In this document: positions 11,398 through 33,170 of the stretch, one piece after another | Layout: each line of letters begins with the position of its first letter | Position numbering within the stretch: the stretch's first letter is position 1 | NCBI GenBank assembly: GCA_003138365.1 | Contig: PLFY01000183.1 | Location: 1 to 49,021, forward strand | Length of the DNA: 49,021 nucleotides | Direction: 5' to 3' | Source: Acidobacteriaceae bacterium | GTDB taxonomy: Bacteria > Acidobacteriota > Terriglobia > Terriglobales > Acidobacteriaceae | The notes under the pieces: model-generated | Database searches by the model: none | The model's input: only the letters and a program-made list of their open reading frames with translations | Told to the model about the DNA's origin: nothing | Made by a program: the position numbers and the translations under genes

Positions 11398-13566
11398 TCA
11401 CTGCTCGTTCAAGTCGACGCTGTAGAGGTTGACGGTGGATGTTCTTGCGCTGACCATGGGCAAATCGCCGGGCGCCAGGCCGATCAGACGGTAATCGGTG
11501 GCGGCAATGGGGCGCAGGTTTTCGATGGTGCACACCTGTTCCGGCTGTCCCGAGGGAACGGCAATGCGGTAGATAGGCTTGCCCGTCTCAAGAAAATCCT
11601 GGAAATAGAGTAGCCGGCCGTCGTGGGACCAGGTTGGGTCTCCAACTCCATGGGTGGTGAGGGTGCTCCAACGCTCTTGCCCCCGGTCAAACAGGAGCAG
11701 AGCCTTCTGATCCAGGCGGATTGCGGCGATGTAGCGGCCATCGGGAGAGAGACGTGGGCTGAACAGTCCGGTCGAGCCGGGAATCTCCGTCACCTTATGG
11801 GTTGTTAGATTCAACAGGTAGATGGCTTTGGGCTGACCGTTGTCCATGCGATCAGGCAGTCGGCCAAAGACGATCGACTGGCCATCTGCCGACCAGTCAG
11901 GATCAGCCTCGTTGCGGTCTTCGTTGAGTGCGGGCGTGAGTTTTCCACCCTCCGCGTCCATCAAATACAGTTTCCAGGGCTTTCCTGGTTCCTCCGCCAT
12001 CAGCGCCAGGCGCTTATCGTCCGGGGACCACTTCATGCTGAAAATCCGAAGTGGCGGAGTGGTCAATTCGATGCGGTCGCTGCCATCCACCCGGCTTCGC
12101 CAGAGGGAACCGTCGGAAGCATTCAGCCATGCCACCCATTGCCCGTCAGGCGAGTATTCGGCCAGGTCCGCCGCGCTCAAATCCTGATCCAAAGCTGTGA
12201 AAACTGAAGACCTTGGCAGCGCGTGCAGCAACTCGATCTGGGAGTTGACTCCGATAAAGTAGACGCGATGGCTCCCCGGCGATGTGCTGGGCGCCTCATA
12301 GTCGAGCGGGCCATTGGTGATTTGCCTGGGCTCGCGATCCTTCAGGAACCAGGGCCGCTCCCGCAACGCCCAAATCTCGCTGTGGCCGTTCGCGTTGTGC
12401 CAGGACTGGAAGACAAAATCCATTCCATCGGAGGTCCAGCTTCCACAACATTCTGAAGCTGGCTGGCTCCAGCCGGGCAGCAGAGGATGTGGATTTCCGC
12501 CATCCGCCGCCACTTCCCACAACTCGGTGGTTTGGCGCTTGGCTTCGCGGAGCGTGAACCGCAAACGCCGTCCATCCGGCGACCAGCGCAGCCAAAAGGC
12601 CAGTCCCGCCGTGGTGATCAACTTGTGCGGTTCGCTGCCATCGGCTCCAACAATCGTCAGGTCGTTGCCGTTGGCGATGAGCAGGCGACGCCCGTCGGGC
12701 ATCCAGGTTGCGTCGTGAGCCAGCACGTTGGGCACGCGGCGGGCATCGCCGTTCAGCGTCGGAACAATCCACAGCGGCTGCTCCGGATCTGCCTGCAGAT
12801 GACTGTGAATAATCAACTTGGACCCGTCCGGCGAAAGCGACCCAATCAACGGAGATCCAATCTCTGACGGCAGGTTGAAGTGACTGATCTCGCCATTGGC
12901 GGCCAATGCCACCGCCAGCACCGGATTTCCCTTATCCATATGAGAGAAGTAGAGCCGCGTGCCGTCGCTCACTGAGCTGGAGAAGCTCTCCACATCCAGA
13001 TCGTTCAGATTGTTGGTGAGCACCTGCCCGGAATAGGTGACTTGCACAACGCGGTAAGGCTTGCGGGCGGGCGGGCGAAGAAGCAGAGAAAGCACCAGCA
13101 AAACGCAAACGCATGCCAACGATGCCGCAATCCAATGCCGGAGGACGATTCCAGCTTTTCGCGGAGAGAGGGAGGCGACGGCTACCAGGACATCCCCTGG
13201 GGTTGACGAGGTTTGCGGCTCAACTGTCTTGACCGGCGCAATGAATCGGTAACCCCGCTTGGCCAGTGTTTCCACAAACCGCGGATTCTCAGCGTGATCG
13301 CCCAGAGCCTCGCGTAGCTTGTTCACTGCAATTCCCAGGCTGTGATCGAAGTCGACGGTCGTTTCCGGATCCCAAAGCCGCTGCTGAAGGGCTTCGCGGG
13401 ATACGACTTCGCCGGGCTGCTCAAGCAGGGCCGCAAGCAGTTTGAAAGGCTGGCCCTGAAGCCGGACGCGCACACCGGAACGGCGCAGTTCTCCGGTCTG
13501 CAGATCGGCTTCAAAGATGCCGAACTGTAGCCGCTTGGCGCCGTTGCTTTGCTGTTCCGTTGCCAT
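11398..13566 (-). CDS. Winged-helix transcriptional regulator with membrane anchor and WD40-like propeller (CadC-type)
   Basis: 722 residues. Residues 12-112 form an OmpR/CadC-type winged helix (FKLLAALLEQPGEVVSREAL, then AVNKLREALGD and VETLAKRGYRFIAPV). One membrane helix follows at about 142-162 (WIAASLACVCVLLVLSLLL). The outer part is a TolB/PD40-type beta-propeller with at least eight blades marked by LSPDGSKLI, WMPDGRRLL, WSPDGRRLR, YSPDGQWVA, WSPDDKRLA, WSADGQSIV, LSPDGRYIA and WSHDGRLLY. The architecture predicts a one-component regulator that binds DNA inside and senses something in the periplasm. It is transcribed away from the TonB-dependent receptor gene across a 287-bp gap that contains a palindrome, so it is the obvious candidate controller of the sugar locus (inference). 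Confidence 0.9.
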   Translation of the reverse strand: MATEQQSNGAKRLQFGIFEADLQTGELRRSGVRVRLQGQPFKLLAALLEQPGEVVSREALQQRLWDPETTVDFDHSLGIAVNKLREALGDHAENPRFVETLAKRGYRFIAPVKTVEPQTSSTPGDVLVAVASLSPRKAGIVLRHWIAASLACVCVLLVLSLLLRPPARKPYRVVQVTYSGQVLTNNLNDLDVESFSSSVSDGTRLYFSHMDKGNPVLAVALAANGEISHFNLPSEIGSPLIGSLSPDGSKLIIHSHLQADPEQPLWIVPTLNGDARRVPNVLAHDATWMPDGRRLLIANGNDLTIVGADGSEPHKLITTAGLAFWLRWSPDGRRLRFTLREAKRQTTELWEVAADGGNPHPLLPGWSQPASECCGSWTSDGMDFVFQSWHNANGHSEIWALRERPWFLKDREPRQITNGPLDYEAPSTSPGSHRVYFIGVNSQIELLHALPRSSVFTALDQDLSAADLAEYSPDGQWVAWLNASDGSLWRSRVDGSDRIELTTPPLRIFSMKWSPDDKRLALMAEEPGKPWKLYLMDAEGGKLTPALNEDRNEADPDWSADGQSIVFGRLPDRMDNGQPKAIYLLNLTTHKVTEIPGSTGLFSPRLSPDGRYIAAIRLDQKALLLFDRGQERWSTLTTHGVGDPTWSHDGRLLYFQDFLETGKPIYRIAVPSGQPEQVCTIENLRPIAATDYRLIGLAPGDLPMVSARTSTVNLYSVDLNEQ

Positions 13567-13718
13567 GAATGCCCGGCGAACCCTGCCCCGCAGTATACCG
13601 GAAAGGGATCAGACTGCCCTCACGCCCATGTTGATGGGCTGAAAAATCGCCCCATCTTGAGGAGATGTGCACCCTCAAAGATTCATAAACAAATGATTTA
13701 CCAGGAGATCATGAAATG

Positions 13719-13733
13719 ACGCCAAATTGGCGT
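13719..13733. promoter_or_regulatory. Palindromic candidate operator upstream of the receptor gene
   Basis: Perfect 15-bp palindrome acgccaa-a-ttggcgt (7-bp arms, 1-nt centre), about 120 nt before the receptor start and 153 nt before the regulator start. It is the only strong dyad seen in this divergent gap. The binding protein is unknown. Confidence 0.4.
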
Positions 13734-13853
13734 AGTGTGAATTGACCGTCGCTATGTCGAAGGTGTGTTGTCGGGTTTGGTTACAGAGGTGAGGCGTTGA
13801 ACCTGCCGAAGCCCCGGACCGGAAACGTTAACCGCACTTTGGAGGACTTTGTG

Positions 13854-16800
13854 ATGTACAAAAGAAGCACCCTACTATCTAACGGAGAGCGCTGTTTTGG
13901 CAAGCTGTTCTTGGCAGTTGCGGTTCTGCTGCCGTTCCTGATGGTGCCCAGTCTCTTCGCCCAGACCGATCTGGCGAGCATTCGAGGTACAGTTCAGGAT
14001 CAAACCGGTGCGGCGATTCCTGCCGCTTCTATCCAACTGCTCAGCCTGGACACCGGCCTGACGCAGACAGCCGTAAGCGATGCCACCGGCAACTTCCATT
14101 TTGAAGCGCTGATTCGCGGCAACTACCAGGCCACGGTCACCGCCAAGGGATTTCAAACCACAGCACAGAATCTGACCTTGGATGTCTCGCAGGTGCAGAC
14201 GCTCAAATTCGGGTTGAAGCCGGGTGGGGCAACCTCAACTGTTGTCGTCACGGACGCCGCGCCGATCGTGGACACGACGACCTCTTCGACCGGCAACGTG
14301 GTCGAGGCAGAGCAAATAGCCGAGCTTCCGCTCAATGGGCGCAACTACACGCAGCTCGCTATGCTGGTGCCAGGCATCACGCGCGGCGCCTTCGGCAGCG
14401 ATGCATCGGGCGCCAGCGGCAATGCCGAGACCTGGCGAGACATGGAGACAGGCGGCACGGCAATTTCGGCCAACGGACTGCGCCAGCAGTCGAACAACTT
14501 TGAGCTGGACGGCCTGGATAACAATGAATCGCTGGTCAACAGCACGGTTCTCATCACGCCTGTGGACGACATGCAGGAGTTCCGCGTGACCAACTCGGTT
14601 GCCCCGGCCGAATTCGGCAGAGCGGGCGGCGCCATCCTGCAGAACTCGATCAAATCGGGCACCACCAAATATCACGGATCGGCCTTCTTCTTTGACCGCG
14701 ACGGAATCTTCGACGCCAGCCCGAATTACTTCAGTCCGACGACTCCGGCCAGTTCCTTTCACCGCGCGCAGTTCGGCGGCTCGGCGGGCGGTCCCATACC
14801 GTTCCTGCACCACAAGCTTTTCATCTTTGGCGGCTATCAGGGTCTCCGCTTGAAGACGCCGGACGGAGAGGCACAAAACACCGTAGCCACCGCTCTGATG
14901 CGCACCGGCGATTTTTCCGAACTGCTTACGACCCCCAACTTCGGCTGGTCCACCAGCGTACCCAACCAACAGATCACCGGTTGCACCACCACCGCAGGGC
15001 CGGCGGGCACCATCTACGACCCCACGACCTGCTTGCCGTTCCCTGGCAATAAGATCCCGGCAGGTCGCCTGAACAAGGCCGCATTGGCCTATCTGAACGC
15101 CTTCCCGCTGCCCAACAACACCACCGGAACAGGCGGCAACATCGGGTTGAGCGAGAATTACGATTCATTCCCGTCAGGAACCCAGAACTTCAACGACTTT
15201 GACGTGCGCATGGACTGGGCGGCAACCTCAAAGGACAACGTCTTCGTGCGTTACAGCTACGGCCAGGATGTTCTGACCAAGGGAAGCCAGTATCCGAATC
15301 TTCCCGCCGGTTACGGTACCGGCGTCAACCCCGTCCATCCGCGCGGCGAGGCTGTCGGCGAAACCCACCAATTCAGCTCGAATATGGTGAACGAATTCCG
15401 CTACGGTCATCTGTATGACTTTTTCGGATACGTTCCTCCCCTGGACAACATTCCGGTTTCGGCCAATCTCGGCATCCTCAACGCCAACCGCAGCTCACTG
15501 CTGGGCGGCGGCGCGGCCATCAACGGCGGCTGGCCTGAGGGCACCTACACCGGAGACGGAGGGCCTTACACCGTTCCTCAATCGAGCAATCAGTTTGTGG
15601 ATGCGATTTCCTGGGTCAAGGGTCGCCACACGATCAAGTTTGGCGCCAGCATCGAGAAGCGCCAGGTCTCCTTCTTCCAGGGCAATAACGCCAAGGGCAA
15701 CTTCGACTTCAGCGAGAACTCATTCACCGGCAACTCCACCTCCGATATGCTGGCATCCTTTGTGACCAATTACAGCATCGGCGTGGCCAGCAGCTACTTT
15801 GTCACCCAGAATTGGGAGACGGGCTACTACTTCCAGGACGACTGGAAGGTGAACCGCCGTCTGACTCTGAATCTCGGCCTGCGCTATGACCTGTATACCT
15901 TCCCGCTGGAGACGCACAACTACCAGTCGAACTTCAATCTGTCGACGCTGACCTTGCAGCAAGCCGGGACCAACGGGCTCTCAGCCAACATCGTCGCTAC
16001 CAACAGGAACAACTTTGCTCCGCGCTTCGGCTTCGCCTACGATCTGTTCGGCGACGGCAAGACCTCGGTCCGCGGCGGCTACGGCATCTACTACTTCCTG
16101 GACCGCGGCGGCGTGGGAAACCAACTGTCGAATAATCCGGATTTCAACGGCTCAGCGAGCTATAGCGCTTCGCCTGCGCAAGGCGGCTGGCGGCTGGACT
16201 TCACCGGTGCAGCGCCTGCCTGCACCACTGTCGACAAAAACGGAAACACCCTTCCGGGTTCCTGCAACGAGGCCCTTCCGTCTACACAAGGGGCGCTTCC
16301 GTTGCCGGTCTTCGGCTCCACGATCAATCGCGCCGATCCCGTTAACGCAAGTCTGATCTCTGTCGATACCAGCATGCCGACCTCCATGATCCAGCAATGG
16401 AATCTCCAGGTGCAGCGCCAGTTGACACGCCAGACCTCGGTCAACCTGGCCTACGTCGGGACCTCATCCCAGCATCTGTCCACTTGGTTCAACATCAACA
16501 GCCAGGAACTCGACACCGCTCCCAACACCGTCCTGTACAAGGACGCCAACGGGGTCAATTTCGGCTCCATCGATCGCGGCCTCAACAACGGCGCATCCAA
16601 CTACAACGCGCTGCAGGTATTTGTGAACAGCAGAATGCACAGCGGACTCCAGTTCACTGCGGCCTATACCTGGTCGCATTCGCTGGATAATTCCAGTGGC
16701 GCCTTCGGCACTGGAACCAATGGAGCGGGCATCTTCATCACCTCGGCCGGCCCGGACATGAATGCCAATTACGGCAGCTCGGACCAGGATCAGCGCCAGG

Positions 16801-17384
16801 TCTTCACTTTGAGCGCGCTGGGCGAGCTCCCTTTCGGCAAGGGCAAAAGGTTCCTGACGAATGCTCCCTGGGCCGTCAACGAAGCGCTTGGCGGATGGCA
16901 TGTGAATGTCATCACCAGCCTGGAGTCAGGCACGCCCATCACGGTCACAACCGGCAATTACCTCTACAAAGCGGCGAATGGCAGCACCTCCCTTGTCGGC
17001 GGCGGTATGACCAACCGCGCCAACCTTACCGGCAAGGTCAGCTATCCCAAGCACTTGACTGAATGGTTCGACACCACGGCCTTCAGCCACCCCGCGGTCA
17101 TCACCCCGAACGGGCAGAACAGCACCTTTATCGCGCCGGGAACGTTGGGCCGCAACTTTATGGTGGGACCCGCCTTCCGGGATCTGGATGCATCGATTGG
17201 CAAGGACTTCCCCATTAAGGAAGGCGTTGCCATGCATTTCACCGCGGATGCATTCAACCTGTCCAATACGCCGGCCTTCACCAACCCCGACATGGGTCTG
17301 GACGACGGCGCCTTCGGGCAGATCAGCAGCGTCCGTGCCAACTCGGAACGGCAACTGCAACTCTCGCTCCGTTTGACTTTCTAA
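13854..17384 (+). CDS. TonB-dependent receptor, Oar-like, with carboxypeptidase-regulatory N-domain
   Basis: 1176 residues from ATG 13854, which has GGAGG 8 nt upstream (an in-frame TTG at 13797 is less likely). A signal peptide (LFLAVAVLLPFLMVPSLFAQ) is followed by a carboxypeptidase-regulatory beta-sandwich (IRGTVQDQTGAAIPAASIQL through FHFEALIRGNYQATVTAKGF). Next come a plug domain (VEAEQIAELPLNGRNYTQLA, FELDGLDNNESLVN, EFGRAGGAI) and a long outer-membrane barrel ending in the aromatic-terminal strand LSLRLTF. This is the Terriglobia receptor class used for large or polymer-derived substrates, energised by TonB/ExbBD not present here. It leads the CAZyme run (GH13, GH31 next on the same strand), so oligosaccharide import is inferred. 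Confidence 0.92.
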   Translation: MYKRSTLLSNGERCFGKLFLAVAVLLPFLMVPSLFAQTDLASIRGTVQDQTGAAIPAASIQLLSLDTGLTQTAVSDATGNFHFEALIRGNYQATVTAKGFQTTAQNLTLDVSQVQTLKFGLKPGGATSTVVVTDAAPIVDTTTSSTGNVVEAEQIAELPLNGRNYTQLAMLVPGITRGAFGSDASGASGNAETWRDMETGGTAISANGLRQQSNNFELDGLDNNESLVNSTVLITPVDDMQEFRVTNSVAPAEFGRAGGAILQNSIKSGTTKYHGSAFFFDRDGIFDASPNYFSPTTPASSFHRAQFGGSAGGPIPFLHHKLFIFGGYQGLRLKTPDGEAQNTVATALMRTGDFSELLTTPNFGWSTSVPNQQITGCTTTAGPAGTIYDPTTCLPFPGNKIPAGRLNKAALAYLNAFPLPNNTTGTGGNIGLSENYDSFPSGTQNFNDFDVRMDWAATSKDNVFVRYSYGQDVLTKGSQYPNLPAGYGTGVNPVHPRGEAVGETHQFSSNMVNEFRYGHLYDFFGYVPPLDNIPVSANLGILNANRSSLLGGGAAINGGWPEGTYTGDGGPYTVPQSSNQFVDAISWVKGRHTIKFGASIEKRQVSFFQGNNAKGNFDFSENSFTGNSTSDMLASFVTNYSIGVASSYFVTQNWETGYYFQDDWKVNRRLTLNLGLRYDLYTFPLETHNYQSNFNLSTLTLQQAGTNGLSANIVATNRNNFAPRFGFAYDLFGDGKTSVRGGYGIYYFLDRGGVGNQLSNNPDFNGSASYSASPAQGGWRLDFTGAAPACTTVDKNGNTLPGSCNEALPSTQGALPLPVFGSTINRADPVNASLISVDTSMPTSMIQQWNLQVQRQLTRQTSVNLAYVGTSSQHLSTWFNINSQELDTAPNTVLYKDANGVNFGSIDRGLNNGASNYNALQVFVNSRMHSGLQFTAAYTWSHSLDNSSGAFGTGTNGAGIFITSAGPDMNANYGSSDQDQRQVFTLSALGELPFGKGKRFLTNAPWAVNEALGGWHVNVITSLESGTPITVTTGNYLYKAANGSTSLVGGGMTNRANLTGKVSYPKHLTEWFDTTAFSHPAVITPNGQNSTFIAPGTLGRNFMVGPAFRDLDASIGKDFPIKEGVAMHFTADAFNLSNTPAFTNPDMGLDDGAFGQISSVRANSERQLQLSLRLTF

Positions 17385-17710: not shown

Positions 17711-19606
17711 ATGCGATTGTGGCCATCTTTGCTGTTGGCTGGTTCCTTGTGCTGTGCCTCTTCAACGCACTCGGCACAGGCTACGCATCAACCCATCTCA
17801 CAAATTGAAGAATCACCAGGCGAAAAGCCCCAGATCGAGAAGATCGATCCGCCCGGCTGGTTTATCGGCCTGCCCGATCCCATGCTGCTCGTTCATGGCG
17901 AGGGCCTCCAGAAAGCGCGGTTCGCCGTGCAAGGCGAAGGCGTGAAGCTGGTCCGGACACAGACTTCAGCCAATGGACACTGGGCCTTTCTATGGATTGA
18001 AGCCGGCTCCGCAACTGCGCAAACGCTGCAAATTACTGCCGTCAACAATCAAGGGCAGGCGCAGAAGCCGTTTGCTCTGGCAGAGCGATCTCGCGATCCA
18101 CGCGCGCATCGCGGATTTTCTTCAGCCGATGTGCTTTACCTGATCATGACCGATCGCTTCGCCGACGGCAATCAAGCGAGCGATCCACCCGGCGACGATC
18201 GCACCGCCGCCCGCGGCTGGCATGGCGGCAACTTCTCCGGGATCGAACAGCATCTGGATTACCTGCAACAGCTCGGCGTTACGGCGCTTTGGACAACGCC
18301 GGTTGCTTCCAATGGCGGTATGCCTGAGTCTTACCACGGCTACGCAGCCACCGATCTTTATGCGGTGGATTCGCACTTCGGCACGCTGGATGACTATCGC
18401 CATCTTTCCGATGCGCTGCACGCAAGGGATATGAAGTTGGTGATCGACCTGGTGCCCAATCATCTTGGCGTGCAGCATCCGTGGGTGCTCGATCCGCCCG
18501 CGCCTGATTGGTTTCACGGCACGCTCGAGATTCATCGCGCGGCTACCCATGATTTCTACGAGCTGGTTGATCCTCATGCTCCCGTACAGGCGTGGCGCGA
18601 TATCACCAACGGCTGGTTTACCGATGCCATGCCCGACCTGAACCAGGAAAATCCTCTGGTCTCGCGCTATCTGATTCAGAACGCAATGTGGTGGGTGGAG
18701 ACAGCAAACCTCGACGGCATTCGCCTGGATACGTTTCCATATGTGGGCCGCGCCTTCTGGCACGATTTTCACGCCACGCTTCACAGTGTCTACCCTCATC
18801 TGACTACAGTGGGCGAGATCTTCCATCGCGATCCGGAGGTCACCTCGTTTTTCGCCGGAGGAGCGGCGCACGAGGGCATCGATACAGGTCTCGACACGCC
18901 GTTCGACTTTCCAGTCTATTTCACATTGCGCGATATCCTGGCGCATGGACAACCAATGTCGGAGCTAGCTAAGGTTCTTCGCCAGGACTCGCTCTACCCG
19001 CATCCTGAGCAGTTGGTTACGTTCATTGGCAACCACGACACCACGCGTTTTCTCACGGAAGCGAATGGTTCGGTCCCCACGCTCAAGCTGGCGCAGGGAC
19101 TTGTCCTCACGCTGCGCGGCATGCCGCAGATCTACTCCGGAGACGAGATCGGAATGACGGGCGAAAAGGACCCCGACAATCGTCACGACTTTCCCGGCGG
19201 CTTTGCCGGCAACCCGCACAACGCCTTCACCAAGGCCGGTCGCACCGCTAAAGAAGACGAGCTATTTGGCTGGACCTCCGGCCTGTTGGCGCTCCGCGCA
19301 GCGCATCCTGTGCTGCAAACCGGTATGGAACAGAATCTTTTTGCCGATCAGGATGTGTTTGCGTTTGTCCGCTCGCAGGACGGCACAGGTTGCGCTGCAG
19401 ATCACTCGAAAGAAAGATTTTTGATCGTAGTCAACAAGGCGCAGCGGAGCAGGGTTGTTCAACTGCCAATGGATCAAACGGCGCTGGCGGGGTGTGCCAC
19501 GTTTCTCGCTATGCAGCCCGCCGCGGGACTTGCTCCGTCGGTAAGCGACGGTAAACTGCACATGGAAGAGCGGGCTGAATCGATGGCGGTGTATGAGGTG
19601 CGGTAA
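17711..19606 (+). CDS. Secreted GH13 alpha-amylase family enzyme (cyclomaltodextrinase/neopullulanase-like)
   Basis: 631 residues that should cleave or rearrange alpha-glucosidic bonds in maltodextrins or cyclic dextrins. Signal peptide MRLWPSLLLAGSLCCASSTH. An N-terminal beta-sandwich (about 45-130; WFIGLPDPMLLVHGEGL) matches the N-domain of cyclomaltodextrinase-type GH13 proteins. The barrel has all four conserved regions: DLVPNHLG, GIRLDTFPY with nucleophile D340, GEIFH with acid/base E369, and IGNHDTTRF with H442-D443. A short C-terminal beta domain follows. The export signal implies periplasmic or outer-face action, unlike most cytoplasmic cyclomaltodextrinases. It is followed by the GH31 gene at about 50 nt, and the two are probably one operon for alpha-linked glucose or xylose. 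Confidence 0.9.
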   Translation: MRLWPSLLLAGSLCCASSTHSAQATHQPISQIEESPGEKPQIEKIDPPGWFIGLPDPMLLVHGEGLQKARFAVQGEGVKLVRTQTSANGHWAFLWIEAGSATAQTLQITAVNNQGQAQKPFALAERSRDPRAHRGFSSADVLYLIMTDRFADGNQASDPPGDDRTAARGWHGGNFSGIEQHLDYLQQLGVTALWTTPVASNGGMPESYHGYAATDLYAVDSHFGTLDDYRHLSDALHARDMKLVIDLVPNHLGVQHPWVLDPPAPDWFHGTLEIHRAATHDFYELVDPHAPVQAWRDITNGWFTDAMPDLNQENPLVSRYLIQNAMWWVETANLDGIRLDTFPYVGRAFWHDFHATLHSVYPHLTTVGEIFHRDPEVTSFFAGGAAHEGIDTGLDTPFDFPVYFTLRDILAHGQPMSELAKVLRQDSLYPHPEQLVTFIGNHDTTRFLTEANGSVPTLKLAQGLVLTLRGMPQIYSGDEIGMTGEKDPDNRHDFPGGFAGNPHNAFTKAGRTAKEDELFGWTSGLLALRAAHPVLQTGMEQNLFADQDVFAFVRSQDGTGCAADHSKERFLIVVNKAQRSRVVQLPMDQTALAGCATFLAMQPAAGLAPSVSDGKLHMEERAESMAVYEVR

Positions 19607-19658
19607 GGCCTCACCGCAAGCTACCTCCGCAGCGGATGAACGACCGAGAGGCAGTCAG

Positions 19659-22236: not shown

Positions 22237-22731
22237 CTACACAGTGACCATAGCCGCCGCTTCAGGTGCCACCAACGCCACGGGAAGACGCGCACCGTTC
22301 TGGTTGACTATATCGATGCCAGGATGCGCGCGATGCAGCCAGACGGGCGCCGGCAGGCCGGGTATATCCAGGATCACCTGGATACCATTGGCCTGCATCT
22401 TGTCCATCACCGTGTCGAACCACGCGAAGTCGAACTTGCCTTGCGTGGGCTCAAACGAGTCCCACGAAAGATCTCCCATGCGAACGACGTTGAATCCCAC
22501 GTGCTTCATGATCGCAATATCGCGATCGATCTGCTCCGGGGTACGATCGATGGGCTGGTAACATGCGCCCACAAAGAGCTGCCCCGGCCCCGGCCAATTT
22601 CGATGGACGGGAATATCCTGAGCGGCAGAAAACGCGCTGAGAGCCAATCCGACAGCCAGAGAAAACGCAAGCTGCTTTCCTGAGGCACTCGGGCATTGCC
22701 AATGACGCGACAACCAAATCTTTTTTCTCAT
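22237..22731 (-). pseudogene. GH42 beta-galactosidase fragment (N-terminal quarter)
   Basis: 164 residues. A signal peptide (QLAFSLAVGLALSAFSAAQ) is followed by the opening strands of a GH42 barrel: GACYQPIDRTPEQIDRDIAI, MKHVGFNVVRMGDLSWDSFE, GKFDFAWFDTVMDKMQANGI and LPAPVWLHRAHPGIDIVNQN. Full enzymes have 650 or more residues, and both catalytic glutamates would lie beyond this point. After NGARLP the frame runs into about 14 unrelated residues and stops. The 5' end is intact, with AAGGG before the ATG. It reads as a gene cut by a deletion next to the GH31 3' end, probably inactive, though a short exported product could still be made. Confidence 0.75.
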
Positions 22732-22802
22732 GAAGCCCTTCTTGCAGGAGAAAGCTACAAGGCGTTTTATGTTTCTTCAGGACCACCTCGACCCGAGCCA
22801 CA

Positions 22803-22831: not shown

Positions 22832-22852
22832 GACAAATCGGCTGCTGTGGGA

Positions 22853-25516: not shown

Positions 25517-25629
25517 ACGAATGCCCCCTTTTGACCCAGCAGACTCTGGGAAGAGCTCGCAGGCGGTTTCCATGACAACAGATCCTATTTCTCACATCGC
25601 TTGATCGTCCCGGCGGAACCATTCCTCAA

Positions 25630-27225
25630 TTAATTCGCCCGAGCGCTTTCCAGCGTGATGAGCACGATGTCGTTACTCTTCATCGGCACAGAAAACTGAA
25701 TCGTGCCGTCAGGACCACCCCGCACGGTTTTGTCGGTCTCCGGCAGATCGCGGGTCAATTCGTTCAGATGTGCGACCTGATCCGCGCTCAGCTCTTTGGG
25801 AGAACCCATCTCAATGTATGCGGAGTAAGCATCGTTCGCGCGATACCCGGTGCGATGAACTTCCAAGCGATAAGCTTCATTCGGCACAAGATGAGTTACA
25901 TGCAACTCAACGGGCGCCGCAGCTTCATTGGGAATGAGCTTTGTGTAAAAGGATCGGTTGCTCACCTTCTGGTTCGGCTGCTCGAAATCCCAAATGACGG
26001 CCGCAAGGTTCCCACCGTGAGATGCCAGCATCGCCTGCGGATCGGTTGTCCTGAGACTGTCGCCCTGCAGCGCATGAAGGTACTTATAAGCGAAATACGC
26101 CGGCTTGCGAATTCCTTGTGGATTGAGCAGGCCGAATCCGCCTTGAAACGGCGCCGTCGGAGGTCCGGGTTCTTCGAACAAATCGGTGTAGGTCCAATAG
26201 CTCATACCCTGCGCCAATCCTTCGCTGGCTTTGAGCTTGGTCAGAATGTACGGCGCGCTGATGTAGGAATCATGCACAGAGTCGCGTGGCGTATAACTGG
26301 TGCTCCACTCGCTGAAGTACAGCGGAAGACCTGGAAACGGCGAAGCCGAGATCTGCGTGCGAACCCGCCGCACGTCTCCGATGATTGCATCGGGTGACGG
26401 ATCGAGCTTTGTATCGGACTTCCCGTTTTCATCGAGGAATCCGCCTTGAACGCCGTACGTGTGCGTAGTCACGAAGTCGACAGCTGCGCCGCTCTGCTTC
26501 ACGTGCTCGAGAAACTCGGGGACCCATGCCGCCCCGGCAGTGCTCGGTCCTCCCACCCGCAACGCAGGATCAATGGACTTGATGGTATTCGAAGTCAGAT
26601 CGAAGAGCTCGAAGTAGGCTTTCCGATCGCCGTTTTCCCAGAAGCCGGAGAGGTTCGGCTCGTTCCACACTTCGAAAAACCACGTCCGCACTTCGTCTCT
26701 CCCATAGCGCGCTTCAATGTGGCGGATGAAAGCGTCCACAAGGTCGTGCCATGCTTCCGGTTTCGGGTGCGATGTGTTGCCATGCCAATAGAAGATGCTG
26801 TTCTCTGAGGTCGCAAGCGCCTTCGGCGTGAAACCAAGCTCGACAAACGGCCGGATGTGGCGGGCCAGCAAGTCGTCGTAAAGCTGGTCAATCTTTGACC
26901 AGTTGTAGACGGTCTTGCCACCTTCGATTCGCACTGTTCCCAACACGTCATGAAAGATTGCGTGAAAGCGGATGTAGCGAAAGCCGAGTTCATCCACAGC
27001 GAGCTTGAGCTGCGCCTGGCTGTCATCGCGAATCAGCGTGCCCGGATAGTCAGACCCAACAGACAGATCGAAGAAGCGATTTACCGGCCCTTTCGTGTCT
27101 TTGAAATCCACGAGAATGACGCGGGGAGAGGTCTGTTGCGATTGAGCCGCAGAAGATAAGGCAGATAAAGCCACAAGAAAACCAATGGCAGGGAATGAAA
27201 CCGCTCGCAGAACTGAACTGAACAT
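25630..27225 (-). CDS. GH39 family glycosidase (beta-xylosidase-like)
   Basis: 531 residues with an N-terminal signal (FPAIGFLVALSALSSAAQ). The TIM barrel is GH39-like: RYIRFHAIFHDVLG, YNWSKIDQLYDDLLARHIRP, acid/base E189 in FEVWNEPNLSGFW, and nucleophile E306 in LYFSEWSTSYTPRD. YGRDEVRTWFFEVWNEP is the family signature stretch. A beta-sandwich closes the protein. GH39 covers beta-xylosidase and alpha-iduronidase; a bacterium in a hemicellulose locus favours beta-xylosidase (inference). It is read in the same direction as the esterase-family gene upstream (67 nt away) and GH44 downstream (113 nt away), so the three may be one transcript. Confidence 0.88.
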   Translation of the reverse strand: MFSSVLRAVSFPAIGFLVALSALSSAAQSQQTSPRVILVDFKDTKGPVNRFFDLSVGSDYPGTLIRDDSQAQLKLAVDELGFRYIRFHAIFHDVLGTVRIEGGKTVYNWSKIDQLYDDLLARHIRPFVELGFTPKALATSENSIFYWHGNTSHPKPEAWHDLVDAFIRHIEARYGRDEVRTWFFEVWNEPNLSGFWENGDRKAYFELFDLTSNTIKSIDPALRVGGPSTAGAAWVPEFLEHVKQSGAAVDFVTTHTYGVQGGFLDENGKSDTKLDPSPDAIIGDVRRVRTQISASPFPGLPLYFSEWSTSYTPRDSVHDSYISAPYILTKLKASEGLAQGMSYWTYTDLFEEPGPPTAPFQGGFGLLNPQGIRKPAYFAYKYLHALQGDSLRTTDPQAMLASHGGNLAAVIWDFEQPNQKVSNRSFYTKLIPNEAAAPVELHVTHLVPNEAYRLEVHRTGYRANDAYSAYIEMGSPKELSADQVAHLNELTRDLPETDKTVRGGPDGTIQFSVPMKSNDIVLITLESARAN

Positions 27226-27292
27226 GGACTTGTACCTTTTTCAAAGAGTTTTGCTGCTGAGATTGAAGCATGTCTTCGCGCGAGCCGCACTC

Positions 27293-28846
27293 TTACTGGC
27301 ATCGAAAGTTGTGCGCATCTTCGCTGTCTCCGCTCCCTGTGTACTGGGCGTGTTTGGGATAGGCACATAGCGGGCGGCTTCGGCCGGGGAACGCTTGCCC
27401 CGTCGCGATCACCGAATCTGGCGCAGTACCCTTCTCGACCCATTTCACGACCGCGCTCAACATGTCGAAATGGTCGAGTGCCGGGCCGCCGCCGCAGTGT
27501 GCCATTCCCGGCACCAGGAACATCCGGCTCCATTCGGCCAATTTGTCAGCGCCGCCATTCGCCGCAGCCAAGGACTGATAGTAGCCGAGTGTATCGAGAG
27601 GCGAGAACCACGGATCGCTGTTCCCGTGAAAAAAGATCATTTTGCCGCCATTCGATGAGAACGTAGAGAGATTGGTCGATGCCGGCTCGACGAGCGGATC
27701 GGACGCGTGCAGCGCCTCCTTGTCTACGTCTATGTCGGTCGCGGTTGTGTAAGGGCCGAAGATTCCCCTCTGCCTCATCGCCAGCAGTCCCGGCACAAAG
27801 CCCGTCGTTGCGATGCCCGCATCGTACAGAAAGCCGGGATACACCTGGGTTCCGTATGCGTTCTTGGGCCCCGCAAACGCTTTCTTAATAGCCGAGAGCT
27901 TTTCCGGCGCGATGCATCCTTCGCTCGATCCCGGTTTGCAGGCCAGAACCGCGGGATCGAAATCGCAGCCGAGCGGGTCGAAGATCATTCCGTCCGCTAC
28001 GCCGTCGCGAGCGTCGCATGTCTTCATGAGAGTCTCCATGAACAACTTGCGATCGCCATCGGTGAGAAACTTCTCAATCTGCGGCCTGCCTGATTCATCC
28101 TTTGGCGCCGCCTGGTTGTACGCCACCGGAATCCACTCGCCGATCGCGAGGTTCGACAGGCCCGTGCGCATCGCTGGGTCGCCGGATACGATGCCGTTGA
28201 ATACCGTGGGAAAGCGCTGGGAGAGAATCATGCCCTCGCGTCCGCCTGTGGAGCAGCCGACGAAATAGGAATACGACGCGGGCTTGGCGTAGTAATGCGC
28301 GACGATCTGTTTTGCCACTCCAGCCACTTCGGCATTGGCCTGGTAAGCAAAATCCAGATAAGCCTGCTGATCGCGCATGAACGAGAAGTCGAACGCGCCA
28401 TTCTTGGCCTTGTGTCCCGTGTCCGTGCTGGCCACGGCGAATCCCTGCACGAGGGCCGGCTTCTGGCCGGAATACGAGGCGCCGATCGGATAGGCAACGA
28501 CGCCGTTGCCGCCGCCCCCGCCCTGCATCATGAAATCGCCGTTCCAGGTATTTGATTCGGGCAGAGCCACGGCAAACCCGATCCCGAACTCCTCGCCGTC
28601 AGCACTTTTGCGGCGATGAATCACGCCGTCCACGCGGCAATGAGCAGGCAACGGCCCGGTGCTGGCCGCTCCTGGATAGGGAGGCGGGACGGTGGTTCCG
28701 GCGGGAACAGGCGCGGCCTTTGTAATTTCAACACCGTCGATCTTGAGGTTCGCAAGATCTGCGCAGGAATTCGTCGACTCGGCTCGCGCGGCAGAGGCAA
28801 AATAACACGCTGTCATCACCAGCAGCATTAGCTTTGATTGCTTCAT
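27293..28846 (-). CDS. Tannase/feruloyl esterase family protein
   Basis: 517 residues, secreted (MKQSKLMLLVMTACYFASAA). The family triad is in place: S199 in VGCSTGGREG, D411 in NSDPWFSPLD and H450 in GMAHCGGG. Cys198 and Cys451 flank Ser and His as expected for the CS-D-HC disulphide that ties the active site. An N-terminal segment AHCRVDGVIHRRKSADGEEF is also typical. These enzymes release hydroxycinnamate or gallate esters from plant cell walls. AAGGGA lies 9 nt before the ATG. It sits upstream of GH39 on the same strand. Substrate (feruloyl versus tannin) cannot be told from sequence, but the xylan-type context favours feruloyl. Confidence 0.9.
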   Translation of the reverse strand: MKQSKLMLLVMTACYFASAARAESTNSCADLANLKIDGVEITKAAPVPAGTTVPPPYPGAASTGPLPAHCRVDGVIHRRKSADGEEFGIGFAVALPESNTWNGDFMMQGGGGGNGVVAYPIGASYSGQKPALVQGFAVASTDTGHKAKNGAFDFSFMRDQQAYLDFAYQANAEVAGVAKQIVAHYYAKPASYSYFVGCSTGGREGMILSQRFPTVFNGIVSGDPAMRTGLSNLAIGEWIPVAYNQAAPKDESGRPQIEKFLTDGDRKLFMETLMKTCDARDGVADGMIFDPLGCDFDPAVLACKPGSSEGCIAPEKLSAIKKAFAGPKNAYGTQVYPGFLYDAGIATTGFVPGLLAMRQRGIFGPYTTATDIDVDKEALHASDPLVEPASTNLSTFSSNGGKMIFFHGNSDPWFSPLDTLGYYQSLAAANGGADKLAEWSRMFLVPGMAHCGGGPALDHFDMLSAVVKWVEKGTAPDSVIATGQAFPGRSRPLCAYPKHAQYTGSGDSEDAHNFRCQ

Positions 28847-29048
28847 TGCCTGTTATCCCTTCCATGATAGCGCTGTCCTGCCATCCAGAATGCTTTGGTC
28901 ATCCCAGCGAGAATCGTCCCATGGCCCATTCAAGTCCGATTCCATCTACTTCCGCCAATTCGCAGCGAAGAGCACCTGCTGGCAACCCGCCTGGAAGCAA
29001 AGATTCTTGCTGAAGAAAGGTATCACGTGGTTCTGGAATCGGTCGGCC
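28847..29048. other. Gap between esterase gene and IS21 remnant
   Basis: Promoter side of the minus-strand esterase-GH39-GH44 run. No gene or clear operator seen. Confidence 0.35.
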
Positions 29049-29408
29049 TGTGAGCGCCGGAGCAAAAATAGACCACATGGCGCCGCGGCAGCGGCGTGAC
29101 GTGGCGGTGTAAAAGTAGACCACCGCCGGATTCTGGTTTCACGGACAGCGGACATCCCCAAGGGGTAACGAACAAGGTACGAGCCGCGTTCAGAACCGTT
29201 GAGTGGGCAGCCGTAGCCGTGGAACGCCGGAGGGATGTACGCGGTGGAACTGTATGCGCGGGTGCGGCGGGCAGCCCTTATCGAGGGCAAGAGCCAGCGG
29301 ACGGTAGCACGGGAGTTCGGTCTGGCGCGGAAGACGGTGCGGAAGATGCTGGCGTATTCGGCGCCGCCGGGGTATCATCGCCAGCAGCGGAGCCCCGCCT
29401 CCCGATGA
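29049..29408 (+). mobile_element. IS21-family left-end remnant
   Basis: The segment begins with TG and carries the repeated end motifs of IS21 elements: aaaaatagaccac at 29064-29076 and aaaagtagaccac at 29111-29123. The start of an istA transposase follows. The rest of istA, istB and the right end are missing, so the element is immobile. It lies exactly where the CAZyme genes switch from minus to plus strand. Confidence 0.7.
29235..29408 (+). pseudogene. IstA transposase N-terminal fragment
   Basis: 57 codons, ATG with ggaggg directly upstream. The peptide starts MYAVELYARVRRAALIEGKS and continues with the helix-turn-helix QRTVAREFGLARKTVRKML, then SAPPGYHRQ, all typical of the first 50 residues of IS21 IstA (normally about 500). 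It stops soon after, with the integrase core absent. Remnant only. Confidence 0.75.
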
Positions 29409-29617
29409 AAAATCCAACTGAAAGAAAATATACTTCTTACCTGAAGCCTGAAGGGCGCGATTAAGAATGTTGGCCGGTTATCTCCGCAGATGCATTCGTA
29501 AAGCTTCATTGTGGGCGAATGCGATTTTCCCGCACTGGGCCTCTGTCTAGCTCCCTCACCCAATACAATTGGGCGACGCCTTTCCGCACTCACCAAGGGC
29601 TCTGGAGTGGATCGATC

Positions 29618-30688
29618 ATGTTGACTCGCATTTGTCTGGCCCGCTTGGCGCGGCCGTTTTTTGCTTTGTCTCTTCTTGTTGGGCTGGTCGCGGCCGTCCA
29701 CGCACAATCTCTTGCCCCAGAGGTTACGCTGCCCGCGGGCTTTGCCACCATCGACCCCTTTGCGCAATCCAAATTAATGACGAGAGGAGTGAATGTGCTC
29801 GGCTACGACCCCATCTGGGCCGATTTCTCCAAGGGCCGTTTCAAGAAGGAGTACTTCCGCAAGATTCATGACGCCGGATTCGCCACCGTGCGCGTCAACC
29901 TGCAGGCCTTCCGGTACATGACGGCAGAAAACAAGCTGCCCGATTCCTGGTTCCGCATGCTCGACTGGGTCGTCGCCAACGCAACCGAAGCGCATCTGCA
30001 GGTCATCCTCGACGAGCATGACTTCAACTACTGCGGCGATACGAGCTATGTCGAGTGCAAGCCCAAGCTCCTCTCCTTCTGGCAGCAGGTTGCGCCCCGC
30101 TATAGAGACACTCCCGGCAGCGTCACCTTTGAACTCCTCAACGAACCTCACGGCCTCATCTCCAACCAGGAGTGGAACGGCCTGCTCCTCGAGCTGCTCG
30201 CAGTCATCCGTAAAACCAACCCCACCCGTAACGTTGTCATTGGACCCGGTGTCTGGAACAGCCGCGGCGCGCTGAAAGATCTTGCCCTGCCCGGCGACGA
30301 CGGCCACATCATTGTGACCTTCCATTACTATGAGCCCTTCCCCTTCACCCATCAGGGCGCACCTTGGGCTGGCGAAGAAATCCGCGGTGGGCATGACATC
30401 GCTTGGGGCAAGACAGAAGAGCAGCTCATCGTCGAGCGCGACTTCGATGGCGTCGCGCAGTGGAGTCAGGAGCATCATCGCCCCATCCTTCTGGGCGAAT
30501 TCGGCTCCTATGACAAGGCCCCCATGGAGAGCCGCGCCCACTGGGACGCCTATATCCGCAAGATCGCCGAAGATCGCGGTTTCAGCTGGGCCTACTGGCA
30601 GTTCGACTCTGACTTCGTGGTCTACGACGTGGAAACCAACAAGTGGAACCAGCCGATACTGAAGGCCCTGATTCCGAAGTCGCATTGA
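29618..30688 (+). CDS. Secreted GH5 family glycosidase (cellulase/mannanase-type)
   Basis: About 356 residues from ATG 29618, preceded by tctggagtgg. Signal peptide RPFFALSLLVGLVAAVHAQ. The GH5 barrel is clear: RGVNVLGYDP, GFATVRVNLQAFRYM, acid/base E176 in FELLNEPHGL, HYYEPFPFTHQGAPW, and nucleophile E294 in PILLGEFGSYD. The end WAYWQFDSDFVVYDV is the usual last strand. It is close to GH5 proteins acting on beta-1,4-glucan or mannan; the subfamily was not determined. No carbohydrate-binding module. It runs toward GH92 on the same strand but is separated by a terminator-like hairpin. Confidence 0.9.
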   Translation: MLTRICLARLARPFFALSLLVGLVAAVHAQSLAPEVTLPAGFATIDPFAQSKLMTRGVNVLGYDPIWADFSKGRFKKEYFRKIHDAGFATVRVNLQAFRYMTAENKLPDSWFRMLDWVVANATEAHLQVILDEHDFNYCGDTSYVECKPKLLSFWQQVAPRYRDTPGSVTFELLNEPHGLISNQEWNGLLLELLAVIRKTNPTRNVVIGPGVWNSRGALKDLALPGDDGHIIVTFHYYEPFPFTHQGAPWAGEEIRGGHDIAWGKTEEQLIVERDFDGVAQWSQEHHRPILLGEFGSYDKAPMESRAHWDAYIRKIAEDRGFSWAYWQFDSDFVVYDVETNKWNQPILKALIPKSH

Positions 30689-30718
30689 TCGCCAGCTACG
30701 CAATCCGCCGGAAACAGA

Positions 30719-30754
30719 AGGGAGAGCCCCCCGGTCCTCTCCCTCTCGCTTTTT
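30719..30754 (+). terminator. Rho-independent-type terminator after GH5
   Basis: 8-bp stem agggagag / ctctccct (30719-30726, 30737-30744) with a 10-nt loop, followed by ctcgcttttt. The T-run supports termination between GH5 and GH92. Confidence 0.65.
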
Positions 30755-30875
30755 AAGCTGCGTGATTCCTTCAATCCAGCCGTGTCAGATATAGGGGTCG
30801 GCCGCAGGGCTTGTAAGATTGCAGTGGAATTCAAAGAAGATTATGCCCGACACCGAAGGCGAAAGGACACTATTC

Positions 30876-33170
30876 ATGCGATTCACCCATGCACTGTGCT
30901 CTTCCTTGGCTTTGCTTACCTTCTCTTTCTGCCTTTTTGCACAGGCCCAAAGCGCTCCGGCTGTACATTTGTCCAACTACGACAAGGTCGATCCCTTCAT
31001 AGGGACAGCGGGCGGCGGAAACACCTTTCCCGGTGCGACTTTGCCCTTCGGAATGATGCAATGGAGTCCCGACACCAACCACGACGCCTGGTATTTCTAC
31101 AACGACAAGCAGATTCAGGGCTTTGGACTGACCCACATCAGTGGCGCGGGCTGCCCGCTCTATGGCGACTTCGCCGTGCTTCCGATGACATCCCCGTTGG
31201 CCTCGAGCCCCGGTGGCGATCTTGCACCCTACGCCGCCGACTTCAGCCACGACAAGGAAGAAGCCCATCCCGGCTACTACGCCGTCACGCTGGCGAACGG
31301 AATCCGCGTCGAGATCACCGTCTCCGAGCGCGCAGGCATCGCCCGTTTCATCTTCCCGGCAGGCACCGCCGCGCGCCTGCTGGTCAATGCCGGCTCCAGC
31401 GCCGGCTCCTTCCGCAGCCTGGATGGCAAGCAGCCAGACCCGGCCTTTGGCAACAGCATCGAGCTCACCTCCGCCGCCTCCTATGCCGGATCAACCACTG
31501 CCGGCTCTTTTTGCGGAACCAAATCCCAATACAAGCTTTACGTCGCCGGGCGCTTCAACAAACCCTACAAAGACTCGATTCTCTGGAGCGACGGTTCCAT
31601 CATGCCTTCAGCCAAATCGGCCCAGGGCAAGCACACCGGCGCCTGGCTCGACTTCGGCAACCGGCATGAAATCCTCTTGAAAGTCGGCATCTCTTTTGTC
31701 AGCCAAGAGGGGGCCCTGACCAATCTCAACCAGGAGATTCCCGGCTGGAACTTCGACGATGTCCACTCGAAGGCCCGCCGCGCCTGGACCACCCTCCTCA
31801 ACCGCGTCACAGTGGAAGGCGGCACTCCGGACCAGCGTAAAATCTTCGCTACCGGCCTTTACCACTCCTTCTTGTCGCCCAACCTCTTCAGCGATGGCGA
31901 TGGAAGCTACAGCGGCTTTGACAATCAGGTCCACCTCCTCGCCGGATCGAAACAGACTGCCCAATACGCCAACTTCTCTGACTGGGACATCTATCGCAAC
32001 ACCGTCCAGCTTCAGGCCCTGTTCAAGCCCTTGCAGGCGAGCGACATGATGCAGTCGCTGGTCAACGACGCGGTTCAAAGCGGCTGGTACCCCCGCTGGC
32101 CCGCTGCTAACGATGTCACCTACGTCATGGGCGGCGATTCGGCCGCCCCGGTGATCGCCTCGTCCTACGCCTTTGGCGCGCACAATTTCGACACCGCAAC
32201 CGCTCTCCAGTACATGGTCAAGGCTGCAACCCAGCCGGGCGTCGGCCCCCACAACAGCTCCGAGCGCCCCTTCCTTGAGGACTACCGCAAGCTGGGCTAC
32301 GTTCCTTCGGAGAAGGACCGCACATCTGCCTCGCGGACGCTGGAGTACGCGAACGACGACTTCGCCATCGCTCAATTCGCCAAGTCGCTCGGCAACACGT
32401 CCGCCTACCAAACACTGCTCAAGCAGTCGGAAAACTGGAAAAGCCTGTTCGACCCGGAGACACACTGGATTCGCCCCCGCCTTGGCGATGGCGCCTGGCT
32501 GTCCGGATTCGATGCCGAGCGCTCCATGCCCAAAGGCAACGGCTCGGACCAGCTAGGCTTCGAAGAGGGTAACACCTACCAATACACCTTCATGATTCCC
32601 TTCGATTACCCCGCCCTGTTCAAAGCGATTGGCGGAGACGACCAGGTCACTCCCCGGCTCGACAAGTTCTTTCTCAAGCTCCGCTGCTGGGGCGACCCCT
32701 GCTTCAACATGGAGAACGAGCCGGACTTCGTGACTCCCTACGCCTACGTTTTTGCCGGGCAGCCCTGGAAGACCCAGGAAGTCGTCACCCGCATCGCCAA
32801 AGAAACCTTCAAGGCCACGCCCGACGGCATCCCAGGCAACGACGACCTCGGCGCGACCTCAGGCGTCTACGTCTGGAACGCCCTCGGCTTCTATCCCGCA
32901 ATCCCCGGCGTTGGAGGCTTGGTCCTGGGTACGCCCATGTTTGAAAAGGCCACCCTGCACCTGGCGGGAAAGAGAATCGTCGTCATCAGCCGCCGTGGCG
33001 CCGGGTTCTTTGTCCAGAAAGTCACTCTCGACGGCATGGAGTACCCGAATTCCTGGCTGCCCCTGGAAAAGCTGCACCCGGGCACCACGCGCATCGAGTT
33101 CACCACCGGCGATACGCCCAACAAGGAACTCGGCCGGGATCTTGAAAACCGCCCGCCATCCTTCCGATAA
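30876..33170 (+). CDS. GH92 family alpha-mannosidase, secreted
   Basis: 764 residues from ATG 30876, with gaaagga upstream and a signal peptide (SSLALLTFSFCLFAQAQS) directly at the start; earlier ATGs at 30819 and 30843 would bury it. Family marks are VDPFIGTAGGGNTFPGATLP, FGMMQWSPDT, DFAVLPM, the (alpha/alpha)6 barrel with YSGFDNQVHL and FSDWDIYRNT, EEGNTYQYTFMIPFD, NEPDFVTPYAYVFAGQPWKT, and GNDDLGATSGVYVWNALGFY. GH92 enzymes are calcium-dependent, inverting exo-alpha-mannosidases, usually acting on alpha-1,2, 1,3 or 1,4 mannose of glycoproteins or fungal mannan. This substrate class differs from the plant-wall enzymes upstream, so it may serve fungal or yeast debris. Confidence 0.93.
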   Translation: MRFTHALCSSLALLTFSFCLFAQAQSAPAVHLSNYDKVDPFIGTAGGGNTFPGATLPFGMMQWSPDTNHDAWYFYNDKQIQGFGLTHISGAGCPLYGDFAVLPMTSPLASSPGGDLAPYAADFSHDKEEAHPGYYAVTLANGIRVEITVSERAGIARFIFPAGTAARLLVNAGSSAGSFRSLDGKQPDPAFGNSIELTSAASYAGSTTAGSFCGTKSQYKLYVAGRFNKPYKDSILWSDGSIMPSAKSAQGKHTGAWLDFGNRHEILLKVGISFVSQEGALTNLNQEIPGWNFDDVHSKARRAWTTLLNRVTVEGGTPDQRKIFATGLYHSFLSPNLFSDGDGSYSGFDNQVHLLAGSKQTAQYANFSDWDIYRNTVQLQALFKPLQASDMMQSLVNDAVQSGWYPRWPAANDVTYVMGGDSAAPVIASSYAFGAHNFDTATALQYMVKAATQPGVGPHNSSERPFLEDYRKLGYVPSEKDRTSASRTLEYANDDFAIAQFAKSLGNTSAYQTLLKQSENWKSLFDPETHWIRPRLGDGAWLSGFDAERSMPKGNGSDQLGFEEGNTYQYTFMIPFDYPALFKAIGGDDQVTPRLDKFFLKLRCWGDPCFNMENEPDFVTPYAYVFAGQPWKTQEVVTRIAKETFKATPDGIPGNDDLGATSGVYVWNALGFYPAIPGVGGLVLGTPMFEKATLHLAGKRIVVISRRGAGFFVQKVTLDGMEYPNSWLPLEKLHPGTTRIEFTTGDTPNKELGRDLENRPPSFR

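Follow-up and report, generated by a model that had tools for sequence, protein, structure and literature searches.

Can an acidobacterium do the job of the Bacteroides sus operon in a genome with no match to SusD profiles, and if so, with which parts? The question is raised by a 49,021-nucleotide stretch of DNA from an Acidobacteriaceae bacterium (contig PLFY01000183.1, hereafter the window; contig C4 of a 4.78-Mb genome in 230 contigs, with 93.0% completeness and 2.9% contamination). The original prediction had described positions 11398-33170 as a single SusD-less uptake locus, in which a propeller regulator and a receptor precede eight genes of carbohydrate-active enzyme (CAZyme) type. Pfam matches agree with every gene call in this interval and bear out the predicted identities and positions. 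A SusD-less acidobacterial uptake locus does exist, as a core of four genes, but the ten genes do not form one locus. The core (11398-22187) is probably an alpha-glucan uptake module doing the work of the sus operon with other parts, for which we infer the ligand, DNA binding, activation, transport direction and cell location. It consists of the following features:

11398..13566, minus strand: one-component membrane regulator, with a winged helix (PF00486) and PD40 propeller repeats by Pfam
13698..13745, plus strand: predicted operator of 48 bp with TG(A) half-sites about 11 bp apart, from motif search, alignment and matrix scan
13854..17384, plus strand: Oar-like receptor of the TonB-dependent-transporter type, from CarboxypepD_reg and OMP_b-brl_4 matches (PF25183, 722 bits) and Foldseek
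17711..19606, plus strand: GH13 enzyme of cyclomaltodextrinase/neopullulanase type, from Pfam (GH13 and cyclomaltodextrinase N domain) and comparison with solved chains
19593..22187, plus strand: GH31 alpha-glucosidase, from Pfam and comparison with solved chains

The reading frames of GH13 and GH31 share 14 nt. As listed, the receptor's open reading frame (ORF) begins with TTG at 13797; the most likely translation start, judged from the letters, is the ATG at 13854, which is preceded by GGAGG. Most enzymes of the window, including GH13, look exported, with the export signals assigned by eye only from their N-termini.

The conserved unit is these first four genes. A pattern-based scan of one genome per species across 84,980 species, which recovers near relatives only, yielded 60 loci with a relative of the regulator. 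All of them come from records whose titles name Acidobacteria or genera placed there, and cultured carriers are found in Terriglobus, Granulicella, Edaphobacter and Acidipila; two of the regulator loci (L057 and L062) come from one genome, that of Edaphobacter aggregans DSM 19364. We searched the 60 loci with 17 proteins of the window, counting a receptor if it was divergent from the regulator, scored above 200 bits and lay within 700 nt, in loci that extend 350 nt or more beyond the regulator's upstream end. A divergent Oar-like receptor faces the regulator in 55 of the 59 loci with room for one (the sixtieth, L015, is too short), and the conservation of this adjacency, set as a test beforehand, was thereby confirmed. 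No receptor was counted in L010, L014, L052 and L065; L010 holds the regulator and GH13 only, and the contig of L014 stops inside a receptor-like match below the threshold. Because there are only about 26 separate frames matching the Oar-like barrel PF25183 in the whole genome of the window (counted from 34 matches), chance adjacency of regulator and receptor could be ruled out as a candidate explanation. GH13 lies at most 5.5 kb from the regulator in 50 of 53 loci with room, and receptor and GH13 are both present in 48 of the 53 loci that reach 5.5 kb or more upstream. Matches to GH31 above 200 bits stand either after GH13 or beyond the far side of the regulator (12 loci). When the 659 ORFs of the 60 loci were clustered, the regulator family was found in 60 loci, the receptor in 54, GH13 in 49 and GH31 in 15, while the next-largest family occurred in 4.

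A general acidobacterial rule joining such regulators to receptors was rejected on 40 fetched loci, examined with a receptor hidden Markov model (HMM) of our own that could miss other receptor types. The receptor adjoins the regulator in the four loci whose regulator scores above 790 bits (L099, L100, L117 and L118), and by this HMM no adjoining receptor was found in 16 loci with lower-scoring winged-helix/propeller regulators (L101-L116) or in 20 kinase-type loci (L119-L138). With none adjoining in these two groups, the idea that the neighbour pair would be conserved generally with other CAZymes fails. Among 200 sampled genomes of the class, regulators above 790 bits were found only in the family to which the window belongs, in 18 genomes. 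The receptor of L099 is of a different type, and its next gene encodes a GDPD-family phosphodiesterase, not a CAZyme. Two neighbouring regulators stand ahead of receptor and GH13 in L100, tandem regulators also occur at G312:C1:3360472-3365096, and these tandem propeller regulators suggest duplication of the sensor. At L117:747-5893 and L062:4727-9754, a different GH13 lies beside a receptor of the same type.

The two enzymes of the core point to alpha-glucans. The nearest solved chains of GH13 are an alpha-amylase-domain protein, a cyclomaltodextrinase and the neopullulanase SusA (9fyz, E 3.2e-92, with three cyclomaltodextrinase-type and other chains scoring equal or better), and those of GH31 are maltase-glucoamylase and other alpha-glucosidases; by eye, each protein carries the catalytic motifs of its family. 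As the conserved enzymes are GH13 and GH31, the xyloglucan, xylan, glucomannan or yeast mannan envisaged as substrates at the outset are not supported. Accessory genes beside the core include an amylase with a CBM20 starch-binding domain (L011), a pullulanase (L118, on the same contig as L051), an additional GH13 (L051), a different GH13 occupying the normal GH13 position (L062) and another GH31 (L019). The predicted absence of SusD was borne out by a search with two profiles, in which SusD_RagB (PF07980) matched none of 60 genomes of the family and SusD-like_3 (PF14322) had no match in the window's genome, with Bacteroides controls positive for both.

The gap between regulator and receptor (13567-13853), proposed earlier as the regulatory region, contains a conserved predicted operator. 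From 56 regulator-receptor gaps we kept 46 as non-redundant, relatedness being reduced only via a word-sharing filter. A motif search at width 32 found sites in 44 of the 46 gaps with a log-likelihood of 596, versus 118 and 110 in two base-shuffled control sets, for which 25 starts were used instead of 60. The 48-bp consensus is TTAtCtGgTGAt....AaTTGA....aAA.Gg......GtggATTGc, and the window's site occupies 13698-13745. Its column profiles recur at 11 bp (z 3.7, top among lags 3-24), and an 11-bp period is expected for OmpR/PhoB-type winged helices that bind side by side. A weight matrix, trained on receptor-side sites only and with the own locus left out, was used to scan the window and 115 fetched loci (3.86 Mb with both strands counted; L118 and L178-L180 repeat contigs already present). 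The window's site scores 43.1 bits with itself excluded from training, and a site was found ahead of the separate GH31 in 12 of the 12 loci that have one, at 24.4-42.9 bits (L042, L043, L044, L046, L048, L049, L052, L055, L056, L057, L064 and L068). In L010, where the receptor is missing, the site lies before GH13 (43.1 bits), and L065 has sites before GH31 (27.3 bits) and before a different receptor (30.2 bits). The gaps of L061 and L062 carry weak sites. Scanning of shuffled sequence gave 7 matches above 10 bits, with a maximum of 18.2.

A sequence model of 45 receptor-side sites was then applied to 28 whole genomes, comprising 24 carriers and four genomes of the genus without the orthologue, with at most 150 first-look candidates scored per genome and E-values that are rough. 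The model gave 24 matches at E<=0.01; the module accounts for 23 of these, including many training sites, and the remaining one is 76 nt upstream of a secreted-looking isoamylase in Granulicella mallensis X5P3. The window's genome has one site at E<=1 (E 4.8e-6), 20 of the 24 carriers have a site at E<=0.01, and the best match in the four non-carriers (G124, G151, G153 and G157) has an E of 0.49. On these predicted sites, the regulon looks small. Across 43 loci, operator identity correlates with that of the regulator (r 0.62), GH13 (0.50) and the receptor (0.14); the last value exceeds 1996 of 2000 permutations, and the partial correlation given the DNA-binding domain is -0.03. That the operator follows regulator identity is as expected if the regulator binds the operator. 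Scans for sigma-70 promoters and terminators gave no excess over shuffled sequence.

Many Bacteroidetes hybrid two-component systems use propellers, and regulators of the CadC/ToxR family are laid out as a winged helix, a membrane helix and a periplasmic domain. The AlphaFold model of the window's regulator (built from a 33-sequence alignment, mean predicted local distance difference test score (pLDDT) 84.2) has a winged helix at residues ~12-110, one helix at 143-162 fit for a membrane span, and two sets of propeller strands. The latter are modelled as two tandem TolB-like propellers (169-440 and 440-711), of which the C-terminal one superimposes on TolB with a Z of 24.9 and a root-mean-square deviation (rmsd) of 3.2 over 253 residues. 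The pair (~169-701) matches the tandem propellers of LRP6 with an rmsd of 18-22 among the matches listed, a large value that we read as a different angle between the two modelled propellers. Together with the PF00486 match (59 bits), the model gives the regulator the layout of a one-piece membrane sensor, as had been predicted, in which the propellers would face the periplasm. This protein shares the N-terminal OmpR-type winged helix, single membrane helix and outer sensor of CadC/ToxR-type one-component regulators but differs from them in that its sensor consists of paired TolB-like propellers; it is not CadC, since the CadC equivalog model (NCBIfam) reaches 33.8 bits against a cut-off of 400. 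A large periplasmic oligosaccharide sensor is also a feature of the Bacteroidetes hybrid two-component systems as described in the available part of PMC3878776, whereas the window's regulator has no kinase, receiver or AraC domain by Pfam, in line with the claim that a hybrid two-component system is absent here.

Distant homologues join the related propeller to a winged helix without an adjoining receptor, or to a protein kinase (Pfam-checked in L119 only, the other kinase-type proteins being assigned from length and match range). Acidobacterial PD40-propeller kinases resemble the regulator in their propeller head and differ in that a kinase replaces the winged helix and that the 20 sampled have no adjoining receptor. 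One sensor head related to the double propeller thus occurs on two kinds of output, winged helix and kinase (L119-L138; e.g., L119:5053-7716, with Pkinase and PD40 in L119). Most of the sampled kinase-type proteins carry a CCG.W motif, in which the neighbouring cysteines could, from the sequence, form a disulfide. The Cys-Cys pair at 373-374 was considered as a marker of the sugar clade and rejected, as it is also found in most related regulators and kinases sampled; the count of 60/60 refers to any CC in the protein, not to the motif, and the match in one row lies outside the propeller motif.

The shared head bears on what the regulator senses. CadC-type regulators respond to pH and lysine, and the regulator here could likewise read a non-sugar signal, be it envelope or pH stress or, via its TolB-like face, the receptor or another protein, with the alpha-glucan genes as the output and the remainder of the uptake module unaffected. 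The occurrence of the same propeller head on kinases favors this possibility, as do structure titles that name Pal and colicin peptides as protein partners of TolB propellers. We nonetheless regard a non-sugar signal as unlikely, given that, at E<=0.01, the operator occurs across the 28 genomes nowhere but at the module and before one isoamylase, as would suit a sensor dedicated to sugar.

If 11398-22187 is an alpha-glucan uptake module, maltooligosaccharides from starch, glycogen or similar polymers would pass the outer membrane via the Oar-like receptor and would be cleaved to glucose by the exported SusA-like GH13 and the GH31 alpha-glucosidase. The oligosaccharides or a product may bind the paired periplasmic propellers of the regulator, and its winged helix, tethered at the inner membrane, would fill the operator's three or four half-sites, which are spaced by about 11 bp. 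The bound regulator would activate the receptor-GH13-GH31 operon and, in lineages where GH31 stands apart, the separate GH31 promoter as well. The 50 Foldseek matches listed for the receptor, in a model with a poorly predicted plug region, are outer-membrane transporters of the TonB-dependent kind, including a SusC (8aa4). Since the receptor is of the Oar type, it could instead secrete GH13 or another protein, and the regulator would then control an extracellular amylase system. Such secretion is reported for Oar and the protease PopC in Myxococcus, and PMC6434023 describes a TonB-dependent transporter needed for protein export. The combination of receptor, glycosidase and regulator, however, resembles import loci, the Sus system and the carbohydrate utilization loci containing TonB-dependent receptors (CUT loci), as far as these are covered in the available part of PMC1790865, and we consider secretion rather improbable.

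Several observations weigh against the alpha-glucan uptake module as proposed. GH31 was matched above 200 bits in just 18 of the 60 loci, although some contigs are too short, and of 25 genomes in the window's genus, no more than 4 carry an orthologue of the regulator. By Pfam, the four core genes include neither an inner-membrane sugar transporter nor a surface glycan-binding protein; likewise, no inner-membrane sugar transporter was found by Pfam among the window's genes at 11398-33170, nor any transporter among the families present in more than four loci of the relatives, which are regulator, receptor, GH13 and GH31 only, smaller families not being annotated. Nor is the neighbourhood purely alpha-glucan, since L028 has a GH115 gene after GH13, and in L019 a GH42 gene is located some kilobases off. 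No operator site was found in the gaps of L053 and L058, nor one at E<=0.01 in the carriers G101, G119, G198 and G201, and the isoamylase site, with an E of 0.005 per genome over 28 genomes, has a score that by itself is compatible with chance. The receptor model has a pLDDT of 67.2, with most of residues 125-269 in the plug region below 50, and the receptor is without a close solved relative by sequence. Finally, the propeller is common to protein kinases and to regulators without an adjoining receptor, and because of this shared sensor head a sugar ligand does not follow from the fold alone.

Compared with known systems, the module resembles the Bacteroides sus operon in combining an outer-membrane TonB-type transporter, a neopullulanase, an alpha-glucosidase and a membrane-spanning regulator, but no SusD was matched, an Oar-like receptor replaces SusC and GH31 takes the place of SusB. 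By the two SusD profiles and Pfam, neither the susC/susD gene pair nor the SusR or hybrid two-component regulator of Bacteroidetes-type Sus and polysaccharide utilization loci was found. According to the available parts of PMC3878776 and PMC11633381, SusA and SusB process oligosaccharides imported by SusC, and SusR is proposed to sense maltooligosaccharide, with periplasmic maltose being sensed. The available part of PMC3878776 reports SusR from Bacteroidetes only, gives it a C-terminal DNA-binding region, in contrast to the N-terminal winged helix followed by TolB-like propellers here, and places its predicted boxes 67 or 77 bp apart, as opposed to half-sites at ~11 bp. Further parallels are the CUT loci, such as sux and a putative maltodextrin locus in Xanthomonas and mal with MalA in Caulobacter, which in the part of PMC1790865 available likewise comprise a SusD-less TonB-dependent receptor, sugar enzymes and a regulator, and of which maltodextrin versions exist. 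Here too a TonB-dependent receptor is linked to sugar-degrading enzymes, but the sux and putative maltodextrin loci contain a sugar transporter and a repressor according to the same portion of that source, whereas the core described here is without an inner-membrane transporter and has a membrane-bound one-piece regulator with its own predicted operator. The locus is a SusD-less, CUT-like uptake variant outside the SusC/SusD kind. In the open-licence PubMed Central literature we found no paper on acidobacterial SusD-less loci or on this regulator, although some may exist.

Comparison with the nearest relative (L178, the contig of L009) indicates that the receptor gene seems to have been swapped in place in the window's lineage. 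DNA identity per block is 42-68% over 13.6-17.4 kb and ~80% on both sides; the spacer between receptor and GH13 is ~30% identical with many gaps, while the regulator gene reaches 74-89% in 10 of 11 blocks of 200 nt (53% with 69 gap positions in the remaining block) and the interior of GH13 76-84% in 8 of 9 blocks. Over 45 loci, identities of regulator and GH13 correlate at 0.81 and those of regulator and receptor at 0.30, and in the 13 loci with GH31 this enzyme tracks the regulator (0.81), not the receptor (0.27). Regulators are at least 70% identical in 74 pairs, of which 42 have receptors below 50% and none has GH13 below 50%; the converse, a regulator below 50% with a receptor above 55%, is seen in 107 pairs, for example L009-L046 at 43% and 79%. 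The window's regulator clade of 12 loci, named after the identities had been seen, needs 1 change when mapped on the regulator tree, against 2 for GH13 and 6 for the receptor, in quick trees calculated without a mixture model and with long branches flagged. The receptor tree rejects a constraint that keeps the clade together (p 2e-6) and the GH13 tree does not (p 0.1); for the receptor, the likelihood drops by 2391 units, so much that the constrained tree may fit poorly.

As a uniform pattern, receptor exchange was not upheld, because the isolate genomes differ: in the 13 isolate genomes alone, the correlation is 0.56 for regulator and GH13 and 0.73 for regulator and receptor, and in the isolate pair L047-L050 GH13 is the odd gene (regulator 0.72, GH13 0.51, receptor 0.89). 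Exchange is, however, not merely an artefact of metagenome assembly, since the isolate pair L046-L048 shows it (regulator 0.86, GH13 0.84, receptor 0.44). We tentatively propose, as a possibility that falls somewhat short of even, a fixed controller with a replaceable receptor: regulator, operator and, mostly, enzymes would descend together while the receptor is repeatedly exchanged in place, and control would persist since operator and regulator remain together. The double TolB-like propeller would then read the imported sugar directly, as an acidobacterial counterpart of SusR assembled from unrelated components. The exchange of receptors is perhaps driven by pressure from phages or bacteriocins, or serves to change the ligand.

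The remaining enzymes of the interval, all identified by Pfam, lie downstream of the core:

22237..22731, minus strand: GH42 remnant of 164 aa (profile positions 1-92 of 376), at the edge of the neighbouring block and outside the core
22853..25573, minus strand: GH44, outside the core
25630..27225, minus strand: GH39, outside the core
27293..28846, minus strand: tannase/feruloyl esterase (PF07519), outside the core
29519..30688, plus strand: GH5, outside the core on present evidence
30819..33170, plus strand: GH92, outside the core on present evidence

Gene orientation switches at 22.2 kb and 28.9 kb. The view that the propeller regulator controls all eight CAZyme genes as one locus for a plant or fungal polysaccharide has in its favor that the genes are adjacent and mostly look exported by eye, and soil acidobacteria do encounter plant and fungal polymers. 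We rejected it on conservation, operator and synteny, and hold it to be very improbable. The extra enzymes are not conserved alongside the core. Above 80 bits, none of the 60 loci has a match to the GH42 remnant, GH44, the esterase or GH5 near the regulator, while GH39 is matched in 1 (33% identity) and GH92 in 2 (30-35%), all three distantly. A search of 41 related genomes showed GH39 orthologues of 68-86% identity in seven further members of the genus. Six of the seven are without a regulator orthologue at E<=1e-100 (G151 and G157 hold only paralogues of 36-38%), and in the seventh, G172, regulator and GH39 are on separate contigs. Of the seven neighbourhoods fetched, three (L166, L168 and L169) have GH39 adjoining a longer GH42. 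The window's sole operator precedes the receptor, and no other place in the 49 kb reached 10 bits, including 22237-33170. DNA identity to the nearest relative is 74-88% in 12 of 13 blocks of 200 nt over GH31, but only 54% and 44% in the next two blocks. The hemicellulose-type GH42-GH44-GH39-esterase block and GH5/GH92 are separate neighbours and not parts of the module. On contig C117:8222-13553 of the same genome (L174), a full-length GH42 lies beside a GH44 paralogue (75%) in the same order as in the window; judging from this resemblance, GH44 and the GH42 remnant are likely a second copy of the pair, cut at the GH42 end that borders the core. Between the esterase and GH5 genes, positions 29238-29406 resemble by eye the start of an IS21-type transposase, which suggests the trace of a former insertion at this border.

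Acidobacteria are abundant in soil, and the window's genome alone has ~26 separate frames matching the Oar-like barrel. The locus ties one receptor group to a likely substrate class and a predicted operator. Receptor specificity and sugar sensing thereby become directly testable, also in cultured relatives. If the alpha-glucan module holds true, the sus solution for starch would have arisen with a different receptor, alpha-glucosidase and membrane regulator, and the receptor exchange, if upheld, would represent a natural experiment on the swapping of receptor alleles under constant control.

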